Shown in pieces: positions 1 to 14,834 of a stretch of 16,011 bases of DNA. Source of the stretch: an uncultured Holophagaceae bacterium (GTDB taxonomy: Bacteria; Acidobacteriota; Holophagae; Holophagales; Holophagaceae); the NCBI GenBank assembly GCA_903876615.1, contig CAIRAS010000111.1:1-16011 (forward strand), written 5' to 3'. The notes beneath the pieces are model-generated. The model did not search any database and had not been told where the DNA came from. It saw nothing but the letters and a program-made list of their open reading frames with translations. The stretch's first letter is position 1; each line of letters starts with the position of its first letter. The position numbers and the translations under genes are program-made.

Positions 1-230
1 AAAGCAATAAGAAACAGGGATTAAGGGGATGAAGGGGATAGCCACCCCGATGGCGAGAAGGGTTCCCTTCGCCTGATGTTCTTGCGCTGCGGCGCAGGCG
101 CAGGTGCTCCGCAGGTACGGTCCATGTCGTGGCGCCTGGGTGACGATCTGTTTCTGGTGCTTAGCCAGGTTTCGGAGCCGGGACTTGGCGAAAACCAGAG
201 TCGCCTTCCCCGGTAAAGCGCGAGGAACCC
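1..230. other. Intergenic stretch, no recognisable gene
   Basis: I see no gene I can name here on either strand. A weak 46-codon reading frame (76-216, plus) ends in SRLPR but has no Shine-Dalgarno sequence and resembles nothing I know. An imperfect inverted repeat GAAGGG-TT-CCCTTC sits at 57-70, extended by GGC/GCC (52-54, 71-73). The stretch lies beyond the terminator of the leftward hemerythrin operon and may be the leader or remnant of something outside the window. Confidence 0.4.
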
Positions 231-264
231 AAAAAAAGGGGCCCGCCTGGATCAGGCGGGCCCC
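231..264 (-). terminator. Rho-independent terminator of the Rieske-hemerythrin operon
   Basis: A perfect 12-bp stem (238-249 with 253-264) encloses a 3-nt loop. On the minus strand it is followed directly by seven T residues (237-231). It lies 26 nt beyond the hemerythrin stop codon, the expected place for the end of the leftward transcript. Confidence 0.92.
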
Positions 265-290
265 TCTGATGTCGTTTGAGCGTGTGCAGT

Positions 291-683
291 TCAGTGGTGG
301 CTGGAAGACTCCGGCGCACCAGGGCGGTAGGCGGCGGCCTCCTGGTGGGCCCGCCAGGCCTCCAGGAACCCCTGGATGGGCTCCGTCATGTCGAGGCCGA
401 GGGCCTCGTCCGACATCAGCTCCCAGATCCGCCGCACCAGCCTGCGGTGCTCCCCCCGGTGCCAGGAGAGGCCCGAGTCGCGGAGCCGCTCCAACCGGGT
501 CTCCTCGGCGCGGAAATGCTTCACCAGGTAGATGGCGAACCGGTCCAGGAACCGGCGGTTTGCGAGCGGGTCCCGCGGGAGCAGGCCGCGCCAGGCCTCA
601 GCGGTCTGGCTCAGTTGCTCCACGTCAGACACAGGGGTCCAGGGCCGCTCGCCTGGGGCTTCGGGTCTTTTCAGATTGCCCAT
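291..683 (-). CDS. Hemerythrin-like domain protein with incomplete ligand set
   Basis: A 130-residue cytoplasmic protein with no signal peptide or membrane segment. H56, E60, H75 and H79 keep the exact spacing of four hemerythrin iron ligands (H-x3-E, then H-x3-H), and H113 is a possible fifth. The first histidine of the family is missing, since there is no His before 56, and the final H-x4-D pair has no Asp. It may therefore bind iron differently, bind one iron, or not carry O2 at all. The C-terminus is a short His/Ser tail. The start follows an AAGGAG Shine-Dalgarno sequence. It is the last gene of the leftward operon, 40 nt after the Rieske gene and followed by a strong terminator. Family membership is fairly clear; function is not. 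Confidence 0.8.
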   Translation of the reverse strand: MGNLKRPEAPGERPWTPVSDVEQLSQTAEAWRGLLPRDPLANRRFLDRFAIYLVKHFRAEETRLERLRDSGLSWHRGEHRRLVRRIWELMSDEALGLDMTEPIQGFLEAWRAHQEAAAYRPGAPESSSHH

Positions 684-723
684 GACTGCTCCTTATCTTG
701 TGAAAACCGCCGCGGCGGCTGGT

Positions 724-1218
724 TTAGGTCAGGCGCGTGGAGGCCGGCACGGTCTGCGCGGTGTTCACCACGAGAACGCCCCCGGGGCTGGCCTCGGCCA
801 CGGAGAAGTGCACCAGGGGCAGCGTGGCGGGTCCCACCACATTGCCGCCGCCCAGGTTGTACTGGCTGCCATGGCAGGGGCAGAGGATCAGGCTGCCGTT
901 GGGCAGGCCCACGGTGCAGCCCAGGTGGGTGCAGACGGCCGTCATGGCGTAGATGCCCGTGGCGTCTCGGATGAGAAAGAAATTCCCCAGGTTGCGGTAG
1001 TCCCGGACGGTGCCCTCCGGGGTGGCCAGCAGGAGGACCTTGGTATCCGTGGTGCTCAAGGGCCCCCCCACTACGGCGGGGGCCGCAGGGGCCGGGACTG
1101 CGTCACCCCCACCGCCACAGGCCATGGCCAAGCCGGCGGTCAGGGAACTCAGGCAGAAGAGCCGGCGGTCCATCTCGAGGTCCGTTTGCGAACCTGCGGG
1201 GGCTTCGCGTGGGGACAT
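724..1218 (-). CDS. Rieske [2Fe-2S] protein, exported lipoprotein-like
   Basis: A 164-residue protein with a C-terminal Rieske domain (about 55-155). Box 1 is CTHLGC (C96, H98, C101) and box 2 is CPCHGS (C113, C115, H116), so both Cys/His cluster ligand pairs and the disulfide cysteines are present, as in high-potential Rieske proteins. The N-terminus has a twin-arginine pair (R18-R19), a hydrophobic run and Ala-Cys (C34) before a Gly-rich linker. That fits Tat export and possibly a lipid anchor, though the lipobox is weak. The start at 1218 is chosen because AAGGAGGAG precedes it; an upstream in-frame ATG at 1275 has no such signal, and M16 is an alternative. No cytochrome b of a bc1/b6f complex is adjacent, so it is probably a stand-alone electron carrier. 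It shares an operon with the hemerythrin gene. Its leader carries copy A of a motif repeated in the window. Confidence 0.93.
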   Translation of the reverse strand: MSPREAPAGSQTDLEMDRRLFCLSSLTAGLAMACGGGGDAVPAPAAPAVVGGPLSTTDTKVLLLATPEGTVRDYRNLGNFFLIRDATGIYAMTAVCTHLGCTVGLPNGSLILCPCHGSQYNLGGGNVVGPATLPLVHFSVAEASPGGVLVVNTAQTVPASTRLT

Positions 1219-1231
1219 GGCTCCTCCTTCG

Positions 1232-1330
1232 GCAGGCAACGCCCGGGACACCGCGGCCCGGGCATGGCCAACCATCCCCCCTGAAGGTCACCCCAACCAG
1301 ATCCGGTTGCGCGAATGCCACCCCTCCGGG
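1232..1330 (-). promoter_or_regulatory. Repeated leader motif, copy A (Rieske gene)
   Basis: Reading leftward, CGGAGGG (1328-1322), 13 nt, then AACCGGATCT (1308-1299), ending 80 nt before the Rieske start. The same two blocks at identical spacing precede the genes starting at 5519 and 8368. The match to copy B runs three bases further (GGT). A 7-bp hairpin (GCCCGGG/CCCGGGC, 1241-1263) lies just before the Shine-Dalgarno sequence. The second block seen in B and C (GGCGAC) is not clear here. It may be a structured RNA leader or a protein-binding site; the class is unknown to me. Confidence 0.6.
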
Positions 1331-1349
1331 TCGGCACTGGACAGGGGTC

Positions 1350-3533
1350 TCAGAGCCGCGAGGAGTTGCCGCCTGCGGCCAGCAGCTTAAGGATCTCCGC
1401 GACCTCGGCTGCGGACTGCGGCCGGTCCTCGGGCCGTTTCGCCATCAGGCGCCGCACGAGGGCACCCAGGTCCAGGGGCAGCTCCGGGGCGATCTCCAGC
1501 AGGGACGGCGGCGCTGCCGCCAGGTGCAGGTTGAGCAGGTCCTCGATCCGGGGGTCGTCGAAGGGGGGCAGCCCCGAACAGAGCTCGAAGAGCATGATCC
1601 CCAGGGCATAGAGGTCGGCGCGGGCGTCCACCCGGTCGCCACGGATCTGCTCCGGGGCCATGTAGCGCGGAGAGCCGACCAGGTTCCCCACGCCGATGGT
1701 GCTCACGCCCGCGACGGGCGCGGCCAGGCCGAAGTCCATGATCTTGGCGTCGCCCCGCACATCGAAGAGGACGTTCGCGGGCTTGATGTCCCGGTGGACC
1801 ACGCCGACCCCATGGGCCGCCTCCAGCCCCTCGGCCACCTGCCGCGTGATCCGGAGCACCAGCGGCAGCGGCAGGCGGCCCCGGCCATCCAGGAGGCTGC
1901 GCAGCGTGACGCCCTTCAGGAACTCCATGGTCACGAAGGGGATGCCGTCAGCCTCCCCGAAGTCATGGGTCCGGAGGACGTAGCGGTGGGTGATCCGGCG
2001 GGCCAGGCGGATCTCCTGCTTGAGCAGATCCAGGAACTCCGGATTGGAGGCATACTCCGCGCGGACCACCTTCAGGGCCACATCCTCGTCCAGGTGGAGA
2101 TCCCGGACCTTCAGCACCACGCCCATGCCGCCGCTGCCGAGAATGGCCTCCACGCGATAGCGGCCGGCGAAGGTCTCCCCGACCTGGAGGATCGAAGGCA
2201 GTGCTTCCTTACCCGCAGGGCCGGAGATCATCTGGACTGCGTGCGTGATCCCATCCAGGTAGGGATCCCTCCCGGCGGAAGTGAGCGAGGGATGAAAGCT
2301 CATCGGCAGGACCGCAGGCACCGGCTCTTCCGGGCCCCGGCGGGCCAGGTCCAGCAGGGCGAGCAGGTCATCCTTGGCCCGCAGCTCAGCCAGCATGGTC
2401 TTGAACGTCCGGGTCAGGATGCCGACCTCGTCGCCCGTGGGGGCGATGTCCAGCGCCACCGCCGGCTCCCCCTTCGCCAGCGCCTCCGAGGCCGTGGCCA
2501 GTGCCTTCAGCGGAGCCGTGACCTTTCGCGCAGAACGTAGGCTGAGGCCCAGCGCCCCCAACAGGCCCAGGATGCCCACGACCAGGATCGCTTTCTGCAG
2601 GTTTCGGAAGGGCGCAAGCAGCGGGTCCACGGGCATCAGGAGCACCTCCGCCATCTCCAGGTCCAGGGCGTTCACCCCCCGGAGCGGTGAGACCATCCCC
2701 AGATACTTCGTGTCACCCACCTGCACCGGCAGCACATTCGAGCGCAGACCGTCGAGCACCTGGGCCCGCACCGCGAGCACGGCAGGATCCCGCGCCAGCA
2801 GGCGGTCCAGCGCCCCGGCGCTGGGCAGGGTGGCCCCCAGGGTCCGGAACTGGCTGAGGATCGCCAGGTGGGCCGAGGGATCGCCCTTCTGGGGGCCCGC
2901 GATGGCCAGACGGCGCAGGTCCGCGGAAGCGCGGTCATCGATCCGGGAGCCGACCAGCATCGCCCCGAGGGGCTTGCCGCCCGGAGACTTCAGCGTGCGC
3001 GCCACGGCGTGGTAGATCCCGGGCCGCTCCCCCCAGTCCACCCGCAGGAAGCCCCGGTAGAGCGGGCCAGGAAACCCCTGGGCGCGGGCCTCCTCCGGAG
3101 CCAGGGCCATCTGGAGAATGCCCACCTCCGGCAACGCCGCCCGGGCCCCCTTGGCGCTGCTGGCGAGCACCGCGCCCTCCCGCCCCACCACGACGGCAAG
3201 CTCGGCCCCCAGCCGGGGGAGGTTCTCCACCAGGGTGTCGGCGAGGCTGGACGAGGCCCCGGCCTCGGCGGCATGCTCGATCAGGGCCACGTTGCCTGAG
3301 TACTGCGTGAAGACTTCGAGACCGGCATCCATGGACCGGCCCTGCTGCTCGAAGGCGCGGTCGAGGACGTAGCCCCCGGCGGTGAGGCTGGCGCTGGCCG
3401 TGGACCGCGCGCCCCGCTCGGCCTCGCTGTAGGCGACCCAAAGGATGACCGACATGAGAGCCAGGATGGCGGCAGCCTGCCGGATGAAGAAGGTCCATGC
3501 CAGCGTCTGGTACCACTTCACGGTTGGCGTCAT
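1350..3533 (-). CDS. Membrane sensor Ser/Thr protein kinase (sensor-HAMP-kinase)
   Basis: A 727-residue protein. TM1 is at about 18-35, an extracytoplasmic Cache-like sensor region at 36-312, TM2 at 314-334, HAMP at 330-385, a linker, and a full Hanks-type kinase domain at 459-717. Kinase motifs are the glycine loop GSGGMG (466-471), K488, HRDIKPAN (580-587), DFG (600-602) and APE (626-628), so it should be active. The layout is that of a chemoreceptor or histidine kinase, with the kinase at the C-terminus inside the cell. The start at 3533 follows GAGG; the frame is open further upstream, but that part runs antisense to the divergent cupredoxin gene and looks non-coding. The Rieske gene follows in the same direction 131 nt on. 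The cupredoxin gene is 55 nt away and divergent, suggesting linked function or shared control. The ligand and substrates cannot be read from the sequence. Confidence 0.95.
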   Translation of the reverse strand: MTPTVKWYQTLAWTFFIRQAAAILALMSVILWVAYSEAERGARSTASASLTAGGYVLDRAFEQQGRSMDAGLEVFTQYSGNVALIEHAAEAGASSSLADTLVENLPRLGAELAVVVGREGAVLASSAKGARAALPEVGILQMALAPEEARAQGFPGPLYRGFLRVDWGERPGIYHAVARTLKSPGGKPLGAMLVGSRIDDRASADLRRLAIAGPQKGDPSAHLAILSQFRTLGATLPSAGALDRLLARDPAVLAVRAQVLDGLRSNVLPVQVGDTKYLGMVSPLRGVNALDLEMAEVLLMPVDPLLAPFRNLQKAILVVGILGLLGALGLSLRSARKVTAPLKALATASEALAKGEPAVALDIAPTGDEVGILTRTFKTMLAELRAKDDLLALLDLARRGPEEPVPAVLPMSFHPSLTSAGRDPYLDGITHAVQMISGPAGKEALPSILQVGETFAGRYRVEAILGSGGMGVVLKVRDLHLDEDVALKVVRAEYASNPEFLDLLKQEIRLARRITHRYVLRTHDFGEADGIPFVTMEFLKGVTLRSLLDGRGRLPLPLVLRITRQVAEGLEAAHGVGVVHRDIKPANVLFDVRGDAKIMDFGLAAPVAGVSTIGVGNLVGSPRYMAPEQIRGDRVDARADLYALGIMLFELCSGLPPFDDPRIEDLLNLHLAAAPPSLLEIAPELPLDLGALVRRLMAKRPEDRPQSAAEVAEILKLLAAGGNSSRL

Positions 3534-3588
3534 GGGCATCCTCGGATTGATCGGTATACTTGCTTCGAATCTACCCTGGATGCAAAGC
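3534..3588. promoter_or_regulatory. Short divergent promoter region, kinase/cupredoxin
   Basis: Only 55 nt separate the two divergent starts, and the stretch is clearly more AT-rich than its surroundings. The palindrome GTATAC (3554-3559) could serve as a -10 core in either direction (TATACT rightward, TATACC leftward). No convincing -35 is visible, and the promoters may reach into the coding regions. Confidence 0.35.
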
Positions 3589-4263
3589 ATGTTTCGACAC
3601 TTTTCACTGATCCTACCCATGCTCGCGCTGATGGCGCCGCTGGGCGCTGGCAGTGTCCAGGGCCCGGTGCGGATCCACGACCGGGACGGCCGGGTGCGCG
3701 CTTCCCTGCGGGACTGCGTGGCCATCCTGGAGCCCATCGACGCGCCCGTACCGACGGCGGGGCCGTCGAAGCCCGTCACCATCCGCACCCTGGGCAAGCA
3801 GTTCCTGCCCCGGGTCACCCTCGCCACGCCAGGAACCGAGATCACCTTCCCCAACCTGGACCACATCCTCCACAACATGTTCAGCGTGACCCCCGGCAAC
3901 CGCTTCGACACCGGCCACTACCGGCCTGGAGAGGCCCCCCGGGTGAAGGTGGCGATGCCCGGACTCGTGAAGCTCTACTGCAACGTCCACCACCAGATGA
4001 ACGCCTTCGTGTGGGTGGTGACCACGCCGTTCGCCCAGGTGCTGGATGGCAAGGCGGGCGTGTCCTTCGACCAGGTGCCCGCCGGCACCTACCGCCTGCG
4101 CCTCTGGCACCCCGAGTCCGGCGAGCGCACCTGGATGGTCAAGGTCGGGGCCGGAACCACCGAAGGCGCCTGGGACCTGGAGGCGAGCCAGCCCGTGGTC
4201 GAGCCCCACAAGAACAAGTTCGGCCGGGACTACGCCCCCCTGGCGGATGACCGCGAGTACTAG
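3589..4263 (+). CDS. Periplasmic cupredoxin-like protein (methylamine utilization protein-like)
   Basis: A 224-residue exported protein with a signal peptide at about 1-21. A cupredoxin core (about 65-145) keeps a type-1 copper ligand set: H95 in the motif HNMF, then C131-x2-H134-x2-M137. The short Cys-His-Met spacing is that of amicyanin. The C-terminal part (about 146-195) reads as a carboxypeptidase-regulatory-like beta-sandwich (VPAGTYRLRLWHP). Proteins of this two-domain form are often named 'methylamine utilization protein'; no methylamine dehydrogenase genes are near, so that pathway is unlikely. The start could also be M at 3580; neither has a strong Shine-Dalgarno sequence. It is divergent from the sensor kinase and convergent with the outer-membrane barrel gene, sharing the CTAG at both stop codons. 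The role is probably periplasmic electron transfer or copper/redox sensing, which is inference. Confidence 0.82.
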   Translation: MFRHFSLILPMLALMAPLGAGSVQGPVRIHDRDGRVRASLRDCVAILEPIDAPVPTAGPSKPVTIRTLGKQFLPRVTLATPGTEITFPNLDHILHNMFSVTPGNRFDTGHYRPGEAPRVKVAMPGLVKLYCNVHHQMNAFVWVVTTPFAQVLDGKAGVSFDQVPAGTYRLRLWHPESGERTWMVKVGAGTTEGAWDLEASQPVVEPHKNKFGRDYAPLADDREY

Positions 4264-5318
4264 AACCGCCGGACCAGGGTCAGCAGCTTGCGGGTGACCT
4301 GGTAGCTGTCGCCCTCCGACCGCTGGTCGAGGTAGACCAGCGAGACGCTCCACTGCCCCTGGAGGGGCACGGCCAGCTCCACCCGGTGGCCCTGGGCCCG
4401 GCGATAGAACCACCACTCGTCGCCGTTGACGGGATAGAGGGTGCCCGTGGAGGAGAGCCGCTGCCAGATGTAGGAGAGCTGGGGCCAGTAAGGTCGCTCC
4501 CGGCTGCCGAGGATCGCCTGCACCTCCTCGCTGGACTCCCCGCTCTCCCGGTTCTTGGAGCCGAACCACTTGGCTTCGAGGGGCACCACCGTGTGCCAGC
4601 GGACCCCGGCCCCGAGGGCATCGATTGCCAGCCGCTGGCGTTCCGTCGGGCTGTGCCCGGGCAACCGCCGCAGCCGCTCGATGCCCGGATCCCAGGCCAG
4701 ATCCCAGCGCCCCGCGTGGGCGGTCCAGGACCAGGGCCCGGTGTCCAGCTTCAGGACCGCCTGGCCCGCGGCCAGGTCCATCCGCCCGCCGAGCACGTTC
4801 CGGACTCGGCCGGCGGCCACCCGCAGGCCGGCCTCCTGGACCAGCCCGTTCGCGCTGCGGAAGCCCGCCATGCCCCCCGCGCCCACGAAGCGCAGGTCCC
4901 GGTCCCACAGGGCCTGGGAAACCAGCAGGCCACTTTCCTGCAGGCCCAGGCTCAGGCTGCTGAAGGCGCCCGGGCTGACCCAGGAGACCTCGCCCCGGAG
5001 CACATCCGCCTGGGTCCCGTTGGAGTCCTGCTGGTCCCAGCGGGCCGCGTTGAACTGGTTGCCATCAGTGCCCACCGCCGAGCGCGTGCCGGCCACGAAC
5101 CGCACGGAGTCCAGCTCCCAGGTCCAGCGGAGCCGCAGCTGGGCCGCGGCGCGGCGAAAGCTGTCCCCGGTATCCACCGGGTCGGAGAACCGATCGGCGC
5201 GGAGCGTCAGCTCCCAGGCGGGCGTCCAGGGCACTACCCGCTCCGGAGGAAAAGGCGCGGCCTCCTGGCCGATGGCAGACGCGGCAAGCAGGGGGAAAAT
5301 CCAGTGACAGAACGACAT
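4260..5318 (-). CDS. Predicted outer-membrane beta-barrel protein
   Basis: A 352-residue protein with a signal peptide ending near AIG-Q (about 1-19). After that comes a series of alternating, aromatic-rich amphipathic strands with many Trp/Tyr girdle residues, and a terminal Phe (LVRRF), the usual signal for the Bam machinery. It has no N-terminal TonB box or plug that I can see. I do not recognise the exact family; alginate-export-like or other 14-18-strand barrels are candidates. The start at 5318 is chosen for the signal peptide and a GGAG just upstream; longer in-frame starts would place unrelated sequence before the signal peptide. It is convergent with the cupredoxin gene, and its upstream region is shared with the divergent TIGR03118-type gene. 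It may work with the cupredoxin as a periplasm/outer-membrane pair. Confidence 0.8.
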   Translation of the reverse strand: MSFCHWIFPLLAASAIGQEAAPFPPERVVPWTPAWELTLRADRFSDPVDTGDSFRRAAAQLRLRWTWELDSVRFVAGTRSAVGTDGNQFNAARWDQQDSNGTQADVLRGEVSWVSPGAFSSLSLGLQESGLLVSQALWDRDLRFVGAGGMAGFRSANGLVQEAGLRVAAGRVRNVLGGRMDLAAGQAVLKLDTGPWSWTAHAGRWDLAWDPGIERLRRLPGHSPTERQRLAIDALGAGVRWHTVVPLEAKWFGSKNRESGESSEEVQAILGSRERPYWPQLSYIWQRLSSTGTLYPVNGDEWWFYRRAQGHRVELAVPLQGQWSVSLVYLDQRSEGDSYQVTRKLLTLVRRF

Positions 5319-5390
5319 CAGGCTCCGGGCAGGGAAACGCTTGTGGATGGTAGCCGAGTGGGGCGCCGAGGCGAAAGCGGGACCGGACCC

Positions 5391-5476
5391 CACCGGAGGG
5401 TAAGTCTTCTGAAAACCGGATCTGGTGAGGGTTTCCCAGAGGGCGACTCTGGCACTACCGGGAGCGATCCCGGGGC
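5391..5476 (+). promoter_or_regulatory. Repeated leader motif, copy B (TIGR03118-type gene), with hairpins
   Basis: CGGAGGG (5394-5400), 13 nt, AACCGGATCT (5414-5423), then after 18 nt GGCGACTCT (5442-5450). Possible pairing: CACCGGA (5391-5397) with TCTGGTG (5421-5427, one G-U). Two small hairpins follow: CCAGAG/CTCTGG (5436-5452) and CCGGGA-GCGA-TCCCGG (5458-5473), the latter with a GNRA tetraloop. The first two blocks recur before the Rieske gene, and all three recur before the cytochrome c gene. The element ends about 43 nt before the start codon. It resembles a riboswitch or other structured leader, but I cannot name a class. Confidence 0.65.
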
Positions 5477-5518
5477 CCAACCCAGGATTTTGCTCGCCCC
5501 GTCGAGCTGGAGGATTCC

Positions 5519-6694
5519 ATGACCCATCCCACGAATCGCATGACCACGCCCGGAGCCGCTCAGGGGCCGCGGTCCCTCACCACCGCCCGGGCCGGCGTCG
5601 CCGGTCTGCTGCTCTCCCTGGTTGCCTGCGGAGGAAGTGGATCCTCCAGCGGCAACCCGACCCCCGCGCCGACTCTGCCGCCCACCGCCTTCCAGATCAC
5701 CGGCCTGGTGTCCGACCAGGCTTCCGCTGGGGCGGCCACCACAGATGCCAACCTGGTGAACGCCTGGGGGCTCGCCTACGGCCCCAGCACTGACTTCTGG
5801 GTGGCCAACCAGGGCTCCGCCACCTCGACCGTGTATGACGGGCTGGGCAATAAGCCCGCGGTTCCCGTCGTCGTCTCCGTCCCCATGCTCCCGGCCCACG
5901 TCATGGCTGGCCCCACGGGCATGGTGTTCAACGGCGCCGCCGCCTTCGCTGGCGACGAGTTCATCGTGGCCTCGCTGGAAGGCTGCATCTGCGGCTGGAG
6001 CGCCGGCACCACCATGACCCGGCGGGTGGACAACTCACCCTCCGCCGCCATCTACACAGGCCTGGCGCAGGGCGCCGTGGGGACCACCACCTACCTGTTC
6101 GCCGCAAACCTGGCTTCGGGCACGGTTGATGTGTTCGATGCCACCTACGCACCGATCAGCCTGGGGACCGCCGCCTTCGTGGATCCCACCCTGCCCGCCG
6201 GGTTCTCCCCCTACAACGTCCAGGTGCTGGCGGGCAACCTCTACGTGACCTACGCCCAGCATGCCCCCGCCGCCCTGCGGGAGACGCCAGGCGCTGGCCT
6301 CGGCTACGTCAGCGTCTTCAGCCTCGATGGAACTTTCGTCCGGCGCATCGCCTCCGGCGGCGCCCTGAATGCACCCTGGGGCCTGGCCATCGCGCCCGCA
6401 GGCTTCGGTGCCTTCGGCGGGGCCCTGCTTGTGGGCAACTTCGGCGACGGCCACATCACCGCCTTCGACGCCACCACGGGCGCCCAGCTGGGCCAGCTCT
6501 CCGATGCCAACAACGCGCCCCTGGCCATCCCCGGACTCTGGGCCCTGAGCTTCGGCAACGACGCATCGGCCGGGAGCTCCCGCCAGCTCTACGTCACGGC
6601 CGGTCCGCAGGCAGAGTCCCACGGATTGTTTGCCACCATCAGCTACGGCGCTCCCTACACGGGTGGCGGCGTAACCGTCGGCTCGGGCTACTGA
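5519..6694 (+). CDS. TIGR03118-type exported lipoprotein, beta-propeller-like
   Basis: A 391-residue protein. An extended N-terminus leads into a hydrophobic run and a good lipobox LVAC (C37), followed by a Gly/Ser linker and a Pro-rich linker, so it is a predicted lipoprotein. The body (about 55-391) has repeated units such as NLVNAWGLAYGP, APWGLAIAPAGFGAFGGALLVGNFGDG and DATTGAQLGQL, the signature of the TIGR03118 family and reminiscent of NHL-type beta-propellers. The biochemical role of this family is not established. The start at 5519 has GGAGGA at the right distance; M8 is an alternative. Its leader contains copy B of the repeated motif, so it is probably co-regulated with the Rieske and cytochrome c genes. 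Confidence 0.9.
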   Translation: MTHPTNRMTTPGAAQGPRSLTTARAGVAGLLLSLVACGGSGSSSGNPTPAPTLPPTAFQITGLVSDQASAGAATTDANLVNAWGLAYGPSTDFWVANQGSATSTVYDGLGNKPAVPVVVSVPMLPAHVMAGPTGMVFNGAAAFAGDEFIVASLEGCICGWSAGTTMTRRVDNSPSAAIYTGLAQGAVGTTTYLFAANLASGTVDVFDATYAPISLGTAAFVDPTLPAGFSPYNVQVLAGNLYVTYAQHAPAALRETPGAGLGYVSVFSLDGTFVRRIASGGALNAPWGLAIAPAGFGAFGGALLVGNFGDGHITAFDATTGAQLGQLSDANNAPLAIPGLWALSFGNDASAGSSRQLYVTAGPQAESHGLFATISYGAPYTGGGVTVGSGY

Positions 6695-6705
6695 AGAAGG
6701 TTGTC

Positions 6706-6734
6706 TTGACATGATTACGGTAGGGCTCAATTCT
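6706..6734 (+). promoter_or_regulatory. Candidate promoter of the MocR-type regulator gene
   Basis: A consensus -35 TTGACA (6706-6711) is followed after 17 nt by a weak -10 AATTCT (6729-6734), 24 nt before the TTG start codon. The -35 is clear; the -10 is poor, so an activator may be needed. Confidence 0.4.
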
Positions 6735-6757
6735 GATCCCCACACTGGAGACTCCAC

Positions 6758-8236
6758 TTGGCCAACTGGGACCTCGCCATCGCGCTTGACCGCACCCGGC
6801 CCGAGCCCCTGTATCTGCAGCTGGTGAAGGCCCTGGAGGAGGGCATCCGCAGCGGGCGCTTCCAGCCCGGCGATGCCCTCCCCGGGACCCGCGCGATGGT
6901 GGAGCTCCTGGGCGTCAACCGCAACACCGCCCTGACCGCCTACAAGGAACTGGAAGCCGAAGGCTGGATCGAAGTGGCCCCGGACCGGGGCACCTTCGTT
7001 TCCCGGAAGCGCCCCTTCGTCCTCAATGCCCCCGTCGGCATCTCCGCCCAGGACTCGGCCTCGTGGAAGCGGCCCACGCCTCCCAGCGAGCCCTTCTTCC
7101 AGCCCGGCGCCCCGGCCCTGTCGTCCTTCCAGCTCATCCCGGATGCCACTGACCTGCGGCTCGCGCCGACCGAGGCCATCCACCGGGCCTATGGCCGGAT
7201 CCTGAAGCTCCATCCGGAGCGCCTGCTGCAGCCCGGCTGGGATCCTCGGGGCCTCCTGGATCTCCGCAACTCGCTCAGCAAGATGCTCCGGGATATGCGC
7301 GGGCTGTCGGTCGAGGCCGGCAACCTGCTCCTCACCCGGGGCCTGATGAGCACGCTCAACCTGGTCTCCCGCGTGCTCTTCGCGCCGGGGGACGCCGTGG
7401 CCGTCGAGGATCCCGGCTGGTTCCGGGTGGCCGAGGCCTTCCGGTCCGCCGGGGCCCGGCTCTTTCCGGTCCCCGTGGATGCCTACGGCCTGGACGTGGA
7501 GGCCTTCGAGGCCCTGCTCATCCAGGAGCCCATCCGCCTCCTCTACGTCACCGCCAGTCCGCAGCACCCGACCCAGGTGGTGCTGGACCCCGCCCGGCGC
7601 AAGCGGCTGCTCGAGCTGTCCCGGGTCCATGGGTTCCGCATCCTGGAGGGCGATCCCATCCTGGGCTTCCACCGGGAGAAGAACCCCAGCCTGCCGCTGG
7701 CCAGCGAGGATCCCCACGGCCGGGTGCTCTACTTCGGCAGCTTCGAGCAGATCCTCGCCCCGGGGCTGCAGGTGGGCTTCCTGGCCGGCGAGTCGAGCCT
7801 CATCAAGGCCCTGGCCCAGCAGCGGCAGCTCGTGGACTGGCCCGGCAACCTGGTGCAGGAAGCCACCATCGAGGAGACCCTGCGGGACGGCGAGATCGTG
7901 CGGCACCTCCGGCGCATCCGCAAGCTCACGGACGAGCGTCGGGACACCATGGTGGACCGTCTGCTGCTGCACCTCCATCCCGCCCTCACGGTGAAGAACC
8001 CCCGGGAAGGTCTCTCCCTCTGGGTCCGCGTGGCCGACGAGGTGCCTCTCGAGGCCTGGACCCAGCGCTGCCTCGCCCGCGGCGTGGTCTTCTATCCCGG
8101 CTCCCTCTATGACTTCCACCGCAAGCAGCGGCCCCACATCTGCCTGGGCTTCGCCGCCCACACGGTCGAGGAGCAGAACGAGGCCTGCACGCGCATGGCC
8201 CTCGCACTGAAGGACACCGGCAGCCGCCACCTCTGA
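6758..8236 (+). CDS. MocR-type (GntR/aminotransferase-fold) regulator without the PLP lysine
   Basis: A 492-residue protein. An N-terminal GntR winged helix (about 15-82, with PLYLQLVKALEEGI, LPGTR and DRGTFV) is joined by a linker to a fold-type I aminotransferase domain (about 150-485, with VEDPGW, VTASPQHPTQ and a GD at 298-299). That order defines MocR/PdxR/GabR-type transcription factors. Where the family has GTFSK, with the lysine that forms the Schiff base with PLP, this protein reads GSFEQ (Q331 in place of Lys). The effector domain should therefore not bind PLP covalently. The gene starts with TTG at 6758, preceded by GGAG at 7 nt, since no better ATG fits the winged helix. No pyridoxal synthesis or GABA genes are near, so its target is unknown; the flanking TIGR03118 or cytochrome c genes are possible. 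Confidence 0.93.
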   Translation: MANWDLAIALDRTRPEPLYLQLVKALEEGIRSGRFQPGDALPGTRAMVELLGVNRNTALTAYKELEAEGWIEVAPDRGTFVSRKRPFVLNAPVGISAQDSASWKRPTPPSEPFFQPGAPALSSFQLIPDATDLRLAPTEAIHRAYGRILKLHPERLLQPGWDPRGLLDLRNSLSKMLRDMRGLSVEAGNLLLTRGLMSTLNLVSRVLFAPGDAVAVEDPGWFRVAEAFRSAGARLFPVPVDAYGLDVEAFEALLIQEPIRLLYVTASPQHPTQVVLDPARRKRLLELSRVHGFRILEGDPILGFHREKNPSLPLASEDPHGRVLYFGSFEQILAPGLQVGFLAGESSLIKALAQQRQLVDWPGNLVQEATIEETLRDGEIVRHLRRIRKLTDERRDTMVDRLLLHLHPALTVKNPREGLSLWVRVADEVPLEAWTQRCLARGVVFYPGSLYDFHRKQRPHICLGFAAHTVEEQNEACTRMALALKDTGSRHL

Positions 8237-8251
8237 GCCACCTGGGCGGCC

Positions 8252-8348
8252 CGAGCGGAGGGTATGCCATCTGCCAACCGGATCTATCGCCGTCGGCTCA
8301 GCAGGCGACCCTATCCCTGCGGAGTCCCGCAACCAAGCGGGCGCTCCC
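8252..8348 (+). promoter_or_regulatory. Repeated leader motif, copy C (cytochrome c gene), with hairpin
   Basis: CGGAGGG (8256-8262), 13 nt, AACCGGATCT (8276-8285), then after 18 nt GGCGACCCT (8304-8312), the same order and spacing as copy B. A hairpin follows: GGAG-T-CCCGC pairs with GCGGG-CG-CTCC (8321-8347) around an AACCAA loop. The Shine-Dalgarno sequence begins 9 nt later, so the fold could affect translation. The block begins 20 nt after the stop of the MocR-type gene. Confidence 0.65.
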
Positions 8349-9228
8349 TGAACCTGGAGGCGTGCCCATGCCACTCATCACCTGCCTGCACGATGCCGCC
8401 CGCCTTCCCCGCTGGGCCGCCCTCGGAGTGCTCGCCCTGGGGTCCGCCTGGCTGCCCCTGGCGGGACAGGCCCCGGAGGTGAAGGGCCGCTCCGTCCCCG
8501 AGCTGAAGACCTTCTTCCAGCAGCACTGCACCCGCTGCCATGGCCTGGACGGCTCCGCCCAGGGCCCCGACGGTCAGCGGCTGGGCGGCCTGGATTTCAC
8601 GAAGGTGGCCCTGGAATCGCGCACCCTGAGCGGACCAGCCACGGACCGGGAGATCCGCTCCATGAGCCGGACCATCCGGCGGGGCATCCTGTTCGGCTAC
8701 ACCATGCCCGCCTGGGGCCAGCAGCTCACGCTGGAAGACGCGACCCTGCTGGTTCGGGAGGTCCTCCTGAAGGCGGAAAGGGGCGTCACCATCGAGCCCG
8801 CCCCGTGAGCGGCCCAGGATGGCCGTCCTGAGGCCATGCCCGAGGTAGGCCAGCAGGAAGAGGACGCTGGCGGGGCCATGCACCCAGGCCCAGGCGAGGC
8901 GCCACCCCGGGACTACGGCCACCTGCAGCAGGTAGCCGGAGGCCACCATGGGGAGGATCAAGAGGCCCAGGCTCAGCCCCGTGGGGCGGCGCTCGGCGCC
9001 CGCCCGCAGCTTCGCGGCGAGGTGCCCCCGCACGGCCATGCCGAGGGCAAACAGGAGCAAGGGCGCCGCGAGCACATGGAGGTGCTGCGCCAGGCCCTGC
9101 AGCGGATGGGGCTCCGGGCCGAACTCGCCCGCCACCCGGCCGAAATACCGCAGCCACCCGGTGGCCAGGCCGCTGAGGGCCGTCAGGAGGGCGCCCAGGT
9201 GCAGGCTCCACCGCTCCAGGGCGGTCAC
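8311..9228 (-). CDS. Four-helix cytochrome b-like membrane protein (3' end uncertain)
   Basis: The first about 140 residues are a convincing integral membrane protein with helices near 9-27, 50-66, 85-104 and 114-132. Histidines H10, H49, H51, H69, H117 and H131 lie in or beside them, as in four-helix bis-heme cytochrome b proteins (DUF4405-like is my best guess). The GTG start at 9228 overlaps the stop of the FMN-binding protein gene (GTGA), so the two are translationally coupled. After residue 140 (position 8809) the frame meets no stop until 8311 and runs antisense through the whole cytochrome c gene. That tail, rich in Gly, Gln and Pro, looks like a shadow rather than protein. A one-base shift near 8810 would end it at 8786. 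I trust 8809-9228 and not the tail. It probably passes electrons between the quinone pool and the periplasmic flavoprotein. Confidence 0.65.
   Translation of the reverse strand: MTALERWSLHLGALLTALSGLATGWLRYFGRVAGEFGPEPHPLQGLAQHLHVLAAPLLLFALGMAVRGHLAAKLRAGAERRPTGLSLGLLILPMVASGYLLQVAVVPGWRLAWAWVHGPASVLFLLAYLGHGLRTAILGRSRGGLDGDAPFRLQEDLPNQQGRVFQRELLAPGGHGVAEQDAPPDGPAHGADLPVRGWSAQGARFQGHLREIQAAQPLTVGALGGAVQAMAAGAVLLEEGLQLGDGAALHLRGLSRQGQPGGPQGEHSEGGPAGKAGGIVQAGDEWHGHASRFRERPLGCGTPQG
8368..8808 (+). CDS. Monoheme c-type cytochrome, periplasmic
   Basis: A 146-residue protein with a signal peptide ending at about residue 35 (LAGQA). The mature part is a small class I cytochrome c domain: heme site CTRCH (C54, C57, H58) and probable axial Met M113 in YTMPAWG. 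One heme only. The ATG at 8368 is 7 nt from GGAGG; the in-frame GTG at 8362 is too close to it. It is a soluble periplasmic electron carrier of cbb3/SoxX-like size, with partner unknown. Its leader holds copy C of the repeated motif, suggesting joint control with the Rieske and TIGR03118-type lipoproteins. The convergent cytochrome b-like reading frame lies antisense across it. Confidence 0.92.
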   Translation: MPLITCLHDAARLPRWAALGVLALGSAWLPLAGQAPEVKGRSVPELKTFFQQHCTRCHGLDGSAQGPDGQRLGGLDFTKVALESRTLSGPATDREIRSMSRTIRRGILFGYTMPAWGQQLTLEDATLLVREVLLKAERGVTIEPAP

Positions 9229-9761
9229 TTGGCAGCCCCGTGGAGCACCTGGTGCAGCGCCAGCATCCGCCGGGCCGCGTCGGTGAGGGCGTGGGCCGTT
9301 AGGGTGCTGCCCGACAGCGGGCGGATGGCCCCCTTGAGGGAGAGCTGGGCATCCAGCGGCTTCCCGTCGAACTGGCGCACCCAGGCCTCCTTGGCGAGGT
9401 ATTCCTGGGGTTCCCGGAAGGCGAGGACCTCCACCCGCTGGATCCGGCCGGCCGCGCTGATCACCACGAGGACCGTCTCCGGCAGGGTCCGGACCCGGTG
9501 GGTGTCGAGGTAGGCCACGCCCAGCAGCTGTCCGCCCCCGCGGGCCTCGTAGGAGACCTGCCACAGCCCCGCCGGGGCGGTCCCCGCCAGCGCCTGCACC
9601 TGCTGCGCCTGCGGCTCCGTGAGCCAGTGCTCCTTCCGGGTCCACTCCGCGCCCGGGAAGGCGAGCGCGAGGGCCTGCGGGGTGGTGGGCAGCGCCGCCC
9701 CCAGCCCGGTGCCTGCGAGCAGCAGGACCGCTGCTGGCCTGAGGATGCGCTGAAGGTTCAT
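9225..9761 (-). CDS. Exported FMN-binding domain protein (covalent flavoprotein)
   Basis: A 178-residue protein with a signal peptide (about 1-23, GAA-LP) and an FMN-binding domain (about 70-172) of the NqrC/RnfG/PplA type. The motif S150-G151-S152-T153-L-T near the C-terminus corresponds to the S-G-A-T site where ApbE links FMN to the threonine, so T153 is the predicted attachment residue. GAGGTGACC before the ATG gives a good Shine-Dalgarno sequence, and the start is 7 nt from the porin stop. Its TGA overlaps the GTG start of the membrane protein gene. With apbE two genes upstream in the same operon, it is very probably flavinylated in the periplasm and relays electrons with the membrane cytochrome. 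It is not an Rnf or Nqr subunit, since none of the other subunits is present. Confidence 0.9.
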   Translation of the reverse strand: MNLQRILRPAAVLLLAGTGLGAALPTTPQALALAFPGAEWTRKEHWLTEPQAQQVQALAGTAPAGLWQVSYEARGGGQLLGVAYLDTHRVRTLPETVLVVISAAGRIQRVEVLAFREPQEYLAKEAWVRQFDGKPLDAQLSLKGAIRPLSGSTLTAHALTDAARRMLALHQVLHGAAK

Positions 9762-9768
9762 GGTCACC

Positions 9769-11031
9769 TCAGAAGTAGAAGCCGAGGGCGAGGTTCGTCT
9801 GGTTCTGGCCGGTCCGCGCCTGGTTTTCAAGGCGCTGGAAATCGCCCTTCAGGGCCACGTTGGGAATGGGCTTCCAGTTCAGTCCCACGGTGAGGACGCT
9901 CTGGTCGAAGGCCCCGGTGGGGAGCACACCCTGCACCACCTCGGCCTGGGTGTTCAGGCGCTCCCAGCGGACAAAGGGGATGAGCGCCTGCCGGCCGGAG
10001 AGCAGGTCGTAGCCAGCCTCCAGGTAGCCGCCCCACTGGCGCGTGCCGCTCGCCCGGGCGGGGTCCGCAGCGCCCAGCTGGGCGAGATAGGGAGCGCTGA
10101 GGGTGGTGCGGGTGTAGAGGCCGCGCAGCTGCAGGCCGCGGTTCCGGTATTCCGCGTGGAGGTCCCAGAGGGTCGTGGTCAGGGCCTCGCCCATACCGCT
10201 CTGGTTGCTGTTGCCCGTGTAGAAACTCAGGCCCGCGGTGGTGCCCACCAGGGGGGACCAGTCCAGGCGGCCGGTCCAGGCTAGGCTCTGGGCCTTGGCC
10301 TCCTTGCCGAACTGGCGGCCGCCCTGGATGCCTGCGGCGCTGAACTTCTCCGCGTTCATACCGTTCACCAGGTAGACCCGGTAGCTGAAGCTGCCGGGCA
10401 GGTCGCCGTGGAGGCCCACGCCGTTCTCGTGCCAGGTGGTGGGGATCAGGGTCTGCTCCACGAGGGGGCGCCGGGAGCCCAGGAAGGCCGGGGGCTCGTG
10501 CCCCTCATTGATGAACCCCACCGGCAGGAGCAGCTGCCCGGCCCGCACGTTGAAGGCCCTGGTGATCAGGAAGTCCAGGTAGGCGAACTCGACCTTGGCC
10601 TCGCCCTCGGGGGAGGCGTCGCTGTAGCCGCCGTGCTCAAACTCCACCTCGGTGTTCAGCACGATCCGGTCCGAGAACTTGTAGCCCGTGTAGAGCACCA
10701 GCCGCAGGGCATCCAGGCTCTTCTCGCCCGCGCCCCGGGTCCCGTCCTGCAGGCGCCCCTCCTTGGCCTGGTAGAGGAACTCGCCGTAGCCGCCGATGCT
10801 CAGGCCGCCCTTGCTCTCGTAGACCTTGGACGCCGCCTGGGCCATGCCGAAGGAGCCCTTCTCCGGCGCCGCGGGCTGGACCGAGCCCGTCCGCTGGGCC
10901 TCCAGCTCCCGCGTGAGGGTCTCGAGCTTGCGGTTGAACTCCTCCCGGAGCCGGGTGATCTCCGGGCTCTCCTGGGCCGCCAGGGACAGGCCCAGGAGGG
11001 CCGCGAGGAAAGGGCTGGCGAGGCGGGTCAT
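9769..11031 (-). CDS. Outer-membrane porin, phosphate-selective porin O/P-like
   Basis: A 420-residue protein with a signal peptide of about 1-19 (LSLAAQ). A charged coiled-coil segment (about 20-48) follows, then a beta-barrel from about residue 72 (GGLSIGGYGEFLY) to the terminal Phe (LALGFYF). Motifs such as RAGQLLLPVGFINE and TWHENGVGLHG match the OprO/OprP-type porin family. The coiled coil may form a periplasmic stalk, as in trimeric barrels that bind peptidoglycan. The ATG follows AGGAG, and its ATGA overlaps the apbE stop. Its place between apbE and the flavoprotein suggests it serves the same redox module, perhaps admitting an electron acceptor. The substrate cannot be told from the sequence. 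Confidence 0.88.
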   Translation of the reverse strand: MTRLASPFLAALLGLSLAAQESPEITRLREEFNRKLETLTRELEAQRTGSVQPAAPEKGSFGMAQAASKVYESKGGLSIGGYGEFLYQAKEGRLQDGTRGAGEKSLDALRLVLYTGYKFSDRIVLNTEVEFEHGGYSDASPEGEAKVEFAYLDFLITRAFNVRAGQLLLPVGFINEGHEPPAFLGSRRPLVEQTLIPTTWHENGVGLHGDLPGSFSYRVYLVNGMNAEKFSAAGIQGGRQFGKEAKAQSLAWTGRLDWSPLVGTTAGLSFYTGNSNQSGMGEALTTTLWDLHAEYRNRGLQLRGLYTRTTLSAPYLAQLGAADPARASGTRQWGGYLEAGYDLLSGRQALIPFVRWERLNTQAEVVQGVLPTGAFDQSVLTVGLNWKPIPNVALKGDFQRLENQARTGQNQTNLALGFYF

Positions 11032-11969
11032 CGGGACTCCTGGGGCGGCAGCATGGGGTGGAGGGCGCGGAAGGCTGGGGTCATCCGGAGCCTCCCGTCG
11101 CGGAGAAGGAAGACTGCTGCGAGGCCCTGCCGGCGGGCCCAGACGAGCCCGGCCTCAGGGCCCATGACGTAGAGGGCCGTGGACAGCACGTCGGCCGTGA
11201 GGCCATCCGCGGCCACCACGGCGGTGCTGCCCCAGGCGGGACAGGGCTCGCCCGTTGCCGGGTCGAGAATGTGGCGCCCACGCTCGGCGGTGCCGCTGCT
11301 GGACAGCGAGGCGTTCTGCAGCCGGAAGCTCAGGCTGGGGCGCTGGCGGTGGTTCGGGTCCGCCACGCTCACCACCACGGCAGGCCCCCAGACCAGCAGC
11401 TGGCCGCCGAAATCAAGGCGCCCGGCCGGAGCCTTGGCCACGGCGCGCATGCGGTCCAGCGCGTAGCCCTTGAGGAAGCCGCCCTCCTCCAGCGCCGCAG
11501 CCGGGTGGGTCAGGCGCGCTTGGCCCCGGGCCTCATCCAGCTCCAGCAGGGGCGCACCGGAGGCCGCCCGGGCCTGCGCCAGCTGCTCGGGCGAGGGGGT
11601 CCGGCCCCCCACCCGCGTGCCCCAGGCCTGGATCAGGGCCCCGAGCACCGGGTCGAAGGCACCCCCGGTGCGGACCTGCCAGGCCTTGACCACCCCCAGC
11701 AGCTGCAGCCACTCCGGCGCCAGGGCCACTGGGGCGCCCCCGGCGGCGTTGAAGCGGCTCCACTCCGAGCGGGCGTCCCAGGTCGAGCAGGCGGCTTCCA
11801 GGCGCGCGACCTCCCGCAGGGCGGCTTCTTCCGCGGCGCGGGGAGTGGGGCCACCCAGCTGCAGGCGCAGCTCCGTGCCCATGGCCAGGACGAGCCGGTC
11901 GGGGACCTCACCTGCGGCAAGGAACGGAGTGACCAGGCAGAGCAGGGAAACCAGGAATCGGATCAACAT
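11028..11969 (-). CDS. apbE: FAD:protein FMN transferase
   Basis: A 313-residue ApbE family enzyme, which moves FMN from FAD to a Thr/Ser in FMN-binding domains. Family features: MGT (30-32), E69-x-S71-x2-N74, GAFDP (103-107), K167-G168 in GGFLKGYALD, SSSG (223-226) with HILDPATGEP, and the metal-site segment TADVLSTALYVMG (D260, T264). A hydrophobic N-terminus (about 1-19, FLAAG) directs it to the periplasm. The start is uncertain: ATG at 11969 gives a clean signal peptide but no good Shine-Dalgarno sequence; a TTG at 12005 would add 12 residues. It is the first gene of a four-gene operon whose third gene supplies the obvious substrate. The start codon abuts one of two TGAGA/TCTCA palindromes, so repression there would block the whole operon. 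Confidence 0.93.
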   Translation of the reverse strand: MLIRFLVSLLCLVTPFLAAGEVPDRLVLAMGTELRLQLGGPTPRAAEEAALREVARLEAACSTWDARSEWSRFNAAGGAPVALAPEWLQLLGVVKAWQVRTGGAFDPVLGALIQAWGTRVGGRTPSPEQLAQARAASGAPLLELDEARGQARLTHPAAALEEGGFLKGYALDRMRAVAKAPAGRLDFGGQLLVWGPAVVVSVADPNHRQRPSLSFRLQNASLSSSGTAERGRHILDPATGEPCPAWGSTAVVAADGLTADVLSTALYVMGPEAGLVWARRQGLAAVFLLRDGRLRMTPAFRALHPMLPPQESR

Positions 11970-11984
11970 GAGAATAAGTCTCAA
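11968..11984. promoter_or_regulatory. Fur-like inverted repeat at the apbE start
   Basis: TGAGAAT-A-AGTCTCA (11969-11983) is a 7-1-7 inverted repeat with one mismatch per half-site pair. It is one base from the Fur-like consensus TGAGAATnATTCTCA. It overlaps the first base of the proposed apbE start codon, where a bound repressor would block transcription or initiation. Regulator identity is inference. Confidence 0.45.
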
Positions 11985-12013
11985 TTTGGTCCGTCCGGAA
12001 ATCAACCCTAGTT

Positions 12014-12030
12014 TTGAGACATTGTCTCAA
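12014..12030. promoter_or_regulatory. Perfect 17-bp palindrome upstream of apbE
   Basis: TTGAGACATTGTCTCAA is a perfect palindrome (8-1-8) centred 46 bp from the similar site at 11968-11984; both have TGAGA and TCTCA half-sites at the same spacing. It lies in an AT-rich island between the bacteriohemerythrin stop and apbE. A one-base loop and no T-tract argue against a terminator, so I read it as a dimeric-regulator operator, possibly of the Fur family. Confidence 0.55.
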
Positions 12031-12042
12031 TATTGATTTGGA

Positions 12043-12468
12043 TCACAAGGCGGGTTTCTCTCGGGCGAACTGGACGTAGCCCATGTCCGCCTCGTTGATG
12101 TGGTGGGCCAGCCAGTCCGCGGCGAAGTTCGCCATGTGCGCAGCGAAGTCGGCCATGTGCAGGGGGATGGTCAGGTCCTCGTCCACCTTCTGCTGGAGGA
12201 GCTCCACCTTGGCGACCAACTCTGCGTGGTCCTGCTGATGGAAGGCCAGCAAGGGATAGCCGATCTCCCGCATGAAGGCCTCCTCCGTGTCGAAGTGCTC
12301 CTTCGTGTACCGGGCGAGGAAGACCAGGCTCTCCCGGGCCTCGTCCTCCTGAGTGCCCGCCTTGAAGGCATCCTCCATGCGGTTGATGGCCTCGAAGAGG
12401 CGCTGGTGCTGGGCATCGATCAGCTCGATACCGGTCGCGTATTCGTCTTTCCATTGGGCCAAAGGCAT
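12043..12468 (-). CDS. Bacteriohemerythrin
   Basis: A 141-residue single-domain hemerythrin with the full di-iron ligand set: H21, H58, E62, H77, H81, H123 and D128 (the last two in HINEAD). Length and motifs match soluble bacterial O2-binding hemerythrins, which store or deliver O2 or sense O2/NO in the cytoplasm. The ATG at 12468 is 5 nt from GGAGG; the in-frame GTG at 12474 overlaps that Shine-Dalgarno sequence. It lies 73 nt upstream of apbE on the same strand, separated by two palindromes, so it could be a separate unit or the head of the operon. It is divergent from the metallo-hydrolase gene across 130 nt. Confidence 0.95.
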   Translation of the reverse strand: MPLAQWKDEYATGIELIDAQHQRLFEAINRMEDAFKAGTQEDEARESLVFLARYTKEHFDTEEAFMREIGYPLLAFHQQDHAELVAKVELLQQKVDEDLTIPLHMADFAAHMANFAADWLAHHINEADMGYVQFAREKPAL

Positions 12469-12598
12469 GCGCACCTCCAGGGGGCCGACCGGTTCTTTTC
12501 GGAGCCCTGTCGAAAAAATTGACGATCAGCCGCCTGGCCCCGCACCTGCTCCAGCCCAGACGTCGCCCAAACGGGTCATCCTGGGGCAGGAGGGGACC

Positions 12599-13252
12599 AT
12601 GCGCTTCATCCTCGAGCAGCTGAGACTGGGCGGTGACCGCAACTTCGGCTACCTGGTGGGCGACCGCGCGGCTGGTGAGGGCCTGCTGGTGGATCCGTCC
12701 TACGATCCCGCTGCGGCCGTCGCCCGCGCCGCGGCTCAGGGCCTGCGGATCACCGCGATTCTGAATACCCACGGGCACCAGGACCACGCCAACGGCAACG
12801 CCGAGGCCAAGGCCCTCACCGGGGCGCCGGTGCTCGGAGGACCCGGCCACCCGGGCCCCCTGGACCGCACCCTGGCGGACGGCGACCGCCTACCCTTCGG
12901 GGCCTACCACCTGAAGGTCTGGCGAGTGCCCGGCCACTGCCCGGACCACCTCGCCTTCCTGGTGGAGGAGGAAGGCGCCGCCCTCACGGGGGACCTGCTC
13001 TTCGTGGGCAAGGTCGGCGGCACCGGCAGCGACGCCGATGCCCGCACGGAGTGGGATAGCCTCCAGCGCCTGCTGCGGGAGTGGCCCCCGGAGACCACCG
13101 TCTGGCCCGGTCATGACTACGGCGCCCGGGCCAGCTCCACCATGGCCCTGGAGCGGCGCGGCAACCCCTTCCTCCTGTGTCCGGAGGTCGAGGCCTTCCT
13201 CCAGCTCAAGGCCGACTGGCCCGCCTTCAAGGCCCGGCACGGCCTCCGCTGA
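12599..13252 (+). CDS. Metallo-beta-lactamase-fold hydrolase, glyoxalase II-like
   Basis: A 217-residue cytoplasmic protein. The metal site is complete: THGHQDH (H58, H60, D62, H63), H113 in VPGHCPDH, D132 in LTGDLLF and H172 in WPGHDYG. The segment LFVGKVGGTGSD is typical of the glyoxalase II branch, which includes hydroxyacylglutathione hydrolases and persulfide dioxygenases. Two metals are likely bound. Which thioester or persulfide it uses is not clear; the length is shorter than classical GloB (about 250), lacking part of the glutathione-binding C-terminal domain. The ATG at 12599 follows AGGAGG; a longer in-frame extension overlaps the divergent hemerythrin gene and is not credible. Confidence 0.9.
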   Translation: MRFILEQLRLGGDRNFGYLVGDRAAGEGLLVDPSYDPAAAVARAAAQGLRITAILNTHGHQDHANGNAEAKALTGAPVLGGPGHPGPLDRTLADGDRLPFGAYHLKVWRVPGHCPDHLAFLVEEEGAALTGDLLFVGKVGGTGSDADARTEWDSLQRLLREWPPETTVWPGHDYGARASSTMALERRGNPFLLCPEVEAFLQLKADWPAFKARHGLR

Positions 13253-13253
13253 A

Positions 13254-13267
13254 GTGACCGAGGTCAC
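13254..13267. promoter_or_regulatory. CRP/FNR-type palindrome upstream of pepD
   Basis: GTGACC-GA-GGTCAC is a perfect palindrome that contains GTGA-N6-TCAC, the core of CRP-type sites. It starts 2 nt after the stop of the hydrolase gene and 72 nt before the pepD start, a suitable place for an activator or repressor. Chance occurrence in GC-rich DNA is possible. Confidence 0.35.
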
Positions 13268-13338
13268 GCCTCGCCGCCAGGGACCCCCGTACCCTGGAGG
13301 GTCCGCCGGGCCTGTGTCCCGGCGCGCATGGAGGTCCC

Positions 13339-14787: not shown

Positions 14788-14805
14788 CCGCGTCATTCCC
14801 GGCCC

Positions 14806-14834
14806 TTGGCGCAAGCCCGGGGCCGTGATAACCT
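14806..14834 (+). promoter_or_regulatory. Candidate promoter of the tRNA-Ser gene
   Basis: TTGGCG (14806-14811), 17 nt, TAACCT (14829-14834). Spacing is ideal and the expected start of transcription is about 24 nt before the tRNA. Both hexamers deviate from consensus. Confidence 0.4.

Follow-up and report, generated by a model that had tools for sequence, protein, structure and literature searches.

A direct-repeat element in promoters of mostly exported electron carriers of Holophagaceae and Geothrix, and the MocR-type regulator, lacking the PLP lysine, that probably reads it

A set of exported electron carriers appears to be switched on by a MocR-type transcription factor in Holophaga-type bacteria. 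In the 16,011-nucleotide stretch of DNA that was analysed (the window; contig CAIRAS010000111.1 of an uncultured Holophagaceae bacterium, positions 1 to 16,011 of the forward strand), a block of sequence that recurs in promoters of genes for mostly exported electron carriers and lipoproteins is probably the operator of the MocR-type protein encoded at 6758-8236. The repeats within the block, their spacing, a -10 signal downstream of them, the proximity of the element to the regulator gene and the co-occurrence of the two across genomes were all computed.

The block, CGGAGGG-N13-AACCGGATCT, has three exact matches in the window, at 1299-1328 on the reverse strand (copy A) and at 5394-5423 and 8256-8285 on the forward strand (copies B and C), and no further match was found there even when up to three mismatches were allowed. 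Shuffled sequence is expected to hold 0.07 matches and none of 200 shuffles reached three; the three blocks are not due to chance. A sequence-only reading of the window had described three blocks with a 13-nt spacer at these positions, lying 80, 95 and 82 nt before start codons, and both the pattern and the distances were recovered. Its count of three identical bases within the spacer also stands, with their positions corrected to 4 (G), 8 (T) and 9 (C) in all three copies. Copy A has the end of a kinase gene on one side and, on the other, the start of the gene for an exported Rieske-domain lipoprotein (724-1218, reverse strand), identified by domain search, with export and lipoprotein character read from its N-terminus. 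Copy B precedes the gene for a TIGR03118-family lipoprotein (5519-6694, forward strand; 341 bits, cut-off 79.95) in a divergent intergenic region, as had been noticed, which spans 5319-5518 if the upstream gene starts at 5318. Copy C begins 20 bp past the stop codon of the MocR gene and precedes the gene for an exported c-type cytochrome (8368-8808, forward strand; PF13442). Export-type N-termini were judged by eye rather than with a predictor. Beside the regulon, the stretch 9225-12005 encodes an FMN-binding-domain protein, a reading frame with no Pfam match (9769-11031) and ApbE, and has no element of its own in the window.

Among relatives, the element consists of two direct repeats, ACCGGA(G/T)GGg and AACCGGATCTGg, with a period of 23 bp. 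Its logo was built from 95 copies among the loci fetched (at most two mismatches, enough flank, duplicates removed), leaving out 33 non-Holophagae loci, 29 mismatch loci of a single genome (L058-L086, of which two real sites re-entered as L121 and L122) and four loci whose flanks were judged by eye not to fit (L102, L109, L161 and L164). Selection of the copies fixed the core positions and left the remaining positions of the logo free. In element coordinates, positions -2 to 8 read ACCGGA(G/T)GGgT, the middle is T-rich at positions 13-16 and positions 20 to 31 read AACCGGATCTGg; the further conserved positions are a second patch at 47-59 and an A at 63. The two boxes agree better in their first half (CCGGA) than in their second half. 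Within the second patch, A at 52/53 and T at 56/57 score 68 and 63 versus a mean of 17.9 (sd 4.6) elsewhere, in a test set of 58 copies at no more than 75% identity, drawn from 15 families of downstream genes plus a single copy that has no called gene; neither the -10 signal nor A63 had been used in picking copies. We infer that this A..T patch fits a -10 box about 19 bp after box 2 and that transcription starts near position 63, which would put box 1 near -65 to -55 and box 2 near -43 to -32. No conserved -35 other than box 2 was found in the logo. In one clade (G056-G060; loci L205 and L207-L210), box 2 mostly ends in CCTTT instead of TCTGG, and the middle often resembles an inverted box, giving a forward-reverse-forward arrangement.

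The same anatomy can be laid over each copy in the window. In copy B, on the forward strand, box 1 (ACCGGAGGGTA, 5392-5402, putatively -65 to -55) and box 2 (AACCGGATCTGG, 5414-5425, putatively -43 to -32) are followed by the -10-like box GACTCT (5445-5450), recognised like those of the other copies by the fixed-distance A..T signal, and by a predicted transcription start at the A at 5457, chosen for the enrichment of A at element position 63. Pattern matching places box 1 of copy A at 1320-1330 and box 2 at 1297-1308, with GATGGT as the -10-like box at 1271-1276, all on the reverse strand. Copy C, the weakest of the three (34.6 bits), has box 1 at 8254-8264, a box 2 ending in TCTAT instead of TCTGG at 8276-8287 (both pattern matches) and the -10-like box GACCCT at 8307-8312, on the forward strand.

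The predicted start leaves the block ahead of the transcript, at about -65 to -32, where it would be an operator and not leader RNA. A cis-regulatory RNA in the 5' leader, which the sequence-only reading had proposed along with the word 'leader', would accord with a block 46-166 nt before the called start codons and with the folding of some leaders downstream of the predicted start. That distance varies, however, whereas the distance to the -10 box is constant, and the -10 box lies downstream of the block, which thus precedes the predicted (unmapped) start. Two of the checks that had been suggested for an RNA went against it: no Rfam family matched over the block at the gathering score, the scan of the window returning only a tRNA (14865-14952), and no compensatory pair was found in 62 sequences, whose consensus fold contains a single predicted helix, CCGG/CCGG, with 0 of 4 pairs compensatory. 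Since hairpins occur only in the leaders downstream of the predicted start, the RNA reading, to which next to no probability is given, was dropped for the block. As for those leaders, that of the TIGR03118 gene (5457-5518) and those of 11 relatives show a stem-loop at the predicted start and another immediately ahead of the ribosome-binding site, with compensatory changes in 3 of 10 predicted pairs (alignment A3, which holds 12 of the 18 TIGR03118 copies); several CHRD leaders likewise open with a stem-loop.

The exact pattern occurs in 56 stretches of GTDB contigs. Twenty-three of these were assigned to Holophagae-type records (20 by title, and three titled only Acidobacteria that recur in the family genomes G019 and G054), and all 23 have positive flank scores, a result that is partly circular because some of them went into the matrix. 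The remaining 33, two more of them titled Acidobacteria, have flank scores of -0.3 or less; with flanks that do not match, they look like chance occurrences. A match with at most one mismatch is present in 38 of 77 genomes of the family of Geothrix fermentans, and the reversed control gave none. Three of the 38 (G024, G036 and G063) look false by their flanks, and their only such matches (L102, L109 and L164, respectively) were excluded before the regulator search. A profile of the element, made from sequence only and searched across the family with stricter filters, gave matches of at least 30 bits in 36 of the 77 Holophagaceae and Geothrix genomes among the matches listed, so the further copies in related Holophagae for which the sequence-only reading had proposed a search do exist. 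A chance or mobile repeat was also considered as an explanation of the element and rejected, and no link to phage was seen: of 27 viral-contig stretches found with a relaxed pattern, 26 could be scored and the best reached 22.5 bits.

The element appears to serve mostly exported electron carriers and lipoproteins. The gene next to it, for 93 copies with a called gene, encodes a Rieske protein (21), a TIGR03118 protein (18), cytochrome c (13), a DUF5666 protein (8), a PKD-repeat protein (7), a CHRD protein (6), the MocR protein itself (6), a multicopper-oxidase-like protein (4), a 190-aa protein (3), a DUF5777 protein (2), a plastocyanin-like protein (1), a DUF2231 protein (1) or one of three others; domains were searched in one or two members of each group, and some of the rarest are uncertain gene calls. 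From the position of the element, the MocR gene may be autoregulated in some genomes.

The gene at 6758-8236 on the forward strand, between copies B and C, encodes a protein with an N-terminal GntR winged helix-turn-helix domain (PF00392, 59.2 bits, cut-off 27) and a class I aminotransferase-like domain, some 350 aa long, at its C-terminus (PF00155, 77.5 bits), and the structures nearest to its fold model by Foldseek are GabR, aminotransferases and PdxR. By this architecture, which Pfam, NCBIfam, fold model and alignment all bear on, the product is a MocR-type transcription factor. A candidate separate promoter of the gene, the sigma-70-like TTGACA-N17-AATTCT, was read by eye at 6706-6734 (forward strand), and comparable TTGACG stretches, also read by eye, follow the element ahead of the MocR genes of relatives.

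An orthologue of the MocR protein was found in 41 of the 77 family genomes, at 658-1077 bits versus no more than 372 for paralogues among the matches listed, and is 96-97% identical to the window protein in its nearest relatives among the genomes searched (G040-G042). In a sample of the phylum, 23 of 396 genomes have an orthologue, all 23 within the same family. The element, at 30 bits or more among the matches listed, is present in 35 of the 41 orthologue-bearing genomes versus 1 of the 36 others (Fisher p 2e-14). On an rpoB tree of the 51 genomes with enough rpoB, 10 independent contrasts in the regulator were counted on well-supported branches, of which the element agrees with nine, opposes none and shows no difference in one (p 0.004). 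The six orthologue-bearing genomes below 30 bits (G055-G060) have the most divergent orthologues, and weaker matches of 19-26 bits lie within 625 bp of their MocR genes among the matches listed. The single genome with a convincing element and no orthologue detected, G045, may be incomplete because its rpoB was not found either; its strong element (2151-2217 of L356) precedes a gene for a protein with an export-like start. Elements lie on at least two contigs in 23 of the 35 genomes, many of them drafts, so loss of one cluster does not easily explain all of the co-occurrence. Part of it nevertheless reflects gain or loss of the whole gene set, since genomes without the regulator lack both TIGR03118 genes and close Rieske homologues: TIGR03118 was found in none of 29 regulator-less genomes, in a search whose control genomes were silent, versus 17 of 19 regulator-bearing genomes tested in a positive-control run made afterwards, and the best Rieske homologue in regulator-less genomes has at most 44% identity.

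Element and regulator gene also lie close together. Among the matches listed, the nearest element at any score down to 19 bits is within 150 bp of the MocR gene in 26 of 41 genomes, within 1.6 kb in 39 and within 5 kb in all 41; the corresponding counts are 25, 36 and 39 at 21 bits or more and 17, 31 and 34 at 30 bits or more, one cut-off being applied to orthologues and paralogues alike at the latter two scores. None of the 73 MocR paralogues listed for genomes with an orthologue has an element within 5 kb at any cut among the matches listed. At the 11 lowest-scoring orthologue loci, three of which are close relatives of one another, a weight matrix scan located the element upstream of MocR on the opposite strand in every case, which is the classical divergon arrangement of MocR genes.

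It is unlikely that some other regulator, encoded elsewhere, uses the block as its operator and that the MocR gene is just one more member of the regulon. Such a regulator would account for the genomes in which the MocR gene lies downstream of the element as a target would, and for targets that were lost along with the MocR gene; it would leave unaccounted for the proximity of MocR and element, including the 11 loci at which the element stands between MocR and one divergent gene, and MocR factors are known to use direct repeats two turns apart as operators. Eighteen reading frames of the window were scanned, 10 of them without a Pfam match, and Pfam detected no transcription factor besides MocR. 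Nor did Pfam recognise a sigma gene in the window, which counts against an ECF-type sigma promoter in which box 1 would serve as the -35 and box 2, at a spacing of 17 bp, as the -10. GGAGGG-N17-GGATCT does have the spacing of a promoter, and distances throughout the block are rigid, but the two boxes repeat each other as -35 and -10 elements do not, and the strong A..T box and the A at 52-63 would be left unexplained; such a promoter is highly improbable.

A somewhat larger, still small, probability is given to a system with the same MocR protein and operator in which the main effect is repression of the targets, or of its own gene, until a signal releases it. Some MocR factors do repress: EnuR is called a repressor (PMC8739950), and GabR and PdxR repress their own genes (PMC5320631). 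The boxes here, however, lie upstream of the -10 box, not over it, and there is no conserved -35 besides box 2. What we infer from the computed features is that MocR binds, that it activates and does not repress, where transcription starts and how the dimer is arranged; activation is read from box position only. The sequence-only reading had also entertained operators of one regulator, which it left unnamed, for exported electron carriers; that part of it is supported by the direct repeats, the fixed -10 box, the targets and the MocR gene.

In the preferred activator arrangement, each block would form the operator part of a promoter under regulation. MocR would occupy the two direct repeats, 23 bp or about two helical turns apart with centres near -60 and -38, as a head-to-tail dimer. 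Box 2 would replace the missing -35, and bound MocR would recruit RNA polymerase to a weak -10 box, its A and T four positions apart, that follows box 2 at a distance of about 19 bp, so that transcription would start about 34 nt downstream of the block. Regulated in this way would be the Rieske, c-type cytochrome, TIGR03118, CHRD, DUF5666, cupredoxin-like and multicopper-oxidase-like genes, and in some genomes the MocR gene itself or its divergent neighbour.

The cofactor site of this regulator was compared in 42 sequences (the window protein and 41 orthologues) and 20 paralogues picked from those listed. Alignment with solved aminotransferases and PdxR identifies residue 331 as the position of the lysine that forms the Schiff base with PLP; it is Gln in 41 of the 42 and Pro in one, never Lys, and in the paralogues it is Lys in 17 and Arg in three. 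Residue 338, the position of the phosphate-binding arginine in this fold, is Gln in all 42 and is Arg in 19 paralogues and His in one. Asp299, corresponding to the aspartate facing the pyridine nitrogen (Asp279 of GabR), is kept in 42 of 42. Residue 462, an Arg in 19 of 20 paralogues, is Cys in 33 members of the group and Ser in nine; two cysteines, Cys438 and Cys477, never vary in the group, and Cys438 is found in seven of the 20 paralogues as well. At 43 positions, a few of which fall in paralogue gaps, at least 95% of the group share a residue that occurs in no more than one of the 20 paralogues. Judged by this conservation, the cofactor site is a rebuilt pocket and not a decaying one. Because the PLP lysine and the phosphate arginine are gone while a different pocket is kept without variation, covalently bound PLP is probably not the signal, and this variant is unlikely to sense PLP as MocR factors usually do. 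We suggest only tentatively that a MocR factor whose aminotransferase-like domain retains its fold and strict conservation may have given up PLP, may sense another ligand or a redox state, and may switch on exported electron carriers of the Holophagaceae through one direct-repeat operator. Three MocR paralogues of this bacterial family (L230, L231 and L235) have Arg in place of the lysine, which may therefore have been lost more than once.

Several features of the system resemble those of known MocR factors. The MocR of S. meliloti has two 11-bp direct repeats with a 13-bp spacer in its target promoters, nearly the same geometry as here, and the start of mocB was mapped 46 bp before the gene (PMC10107442). 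The box sequences differ (AAAGYGGYTCT there, ACCGGATCTGG here), and so do the targets, which in S. meliloti are the rhizopine-inducible moc genes (PMC10107442). The window protein scores 226 bits against the NCBIfam model for MocR of the S. meliloti type (cut-off 650) and, unlike S. meliloti MocR, lacks the PLP lysine. GabR of B. subtilis and PdxR of B. clausii have the same fold and domain order by Foldseek, at about 20-24% identity, and share with the system described here the divergent arrangement and direct-repeat operators, mixed in the case of PdxR (PMC5320631), but both are PLP-binding proteins that regulate genes for GABA or vitamin B6; against the PdxR equivalog NF052282 the window protein scores 289.5, below the curated cut-off of 320. 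MpaR of Pseudomonas aeruginosa, a cyanide-responsive MocR-type activator of the terminal oxidase subunit gene ccoN4, is encoded beside its target, but requires the PLP lysine (reporter activity is undetectable with K314A) that the window protein lacks, and its palindromic site, ATCTGAT, and its targets differ from those described here (PMC10790758).

Cytochromes, oxidases and oxidoreductases are frequent targets of MocR factors according to the survey of Suvorova and Rodionov (2016; PMC5320631), which also reports direct repeats two or three turns apart and divergent genes for such factors; the survey treats them as PLP-dependent, and a word search of its main text gave no mention of Acidobacteria. 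In keeping with MocR factors, whose operators are direct and/or inverted repeats spaced by at least one helical turn and whose genes often regulate themselves, the element is a 23-bp direct repeat, assigned to the protein by proximity, and the MocR gene adjoins or diverges from targets and, judging by element position, may be autoregulated. As far as these sequences tell, the operator is of a type already known for MocR factors and the novelty of the regulator is the missing lysine. In the MocR classification of PMC6677901, Lys312 (GabR numbering) is conserved across all clusters, and searches of open-access papers showed no MocR protein without the lysine.

One search of open-access papers for work on promoters, regulons and transcription factors of Geothrix likewise returned none. 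For the exported redox proteins of Holophagaceae and Geothrix, the present analysis provides a putative regulator, a putative operator and a list of putative targets. These bacteria would also harbour a MocR lineage without lysine-bound PLP, the feature thought to define sensing by such factors, in which the absence appears conserved rather than decayed. Because lysine-bound PLP is missing from a protein that is otherwise conserved, PLP-free signalling by a MocR factor may be directly testable with one protein and about 40 bp of DNA.
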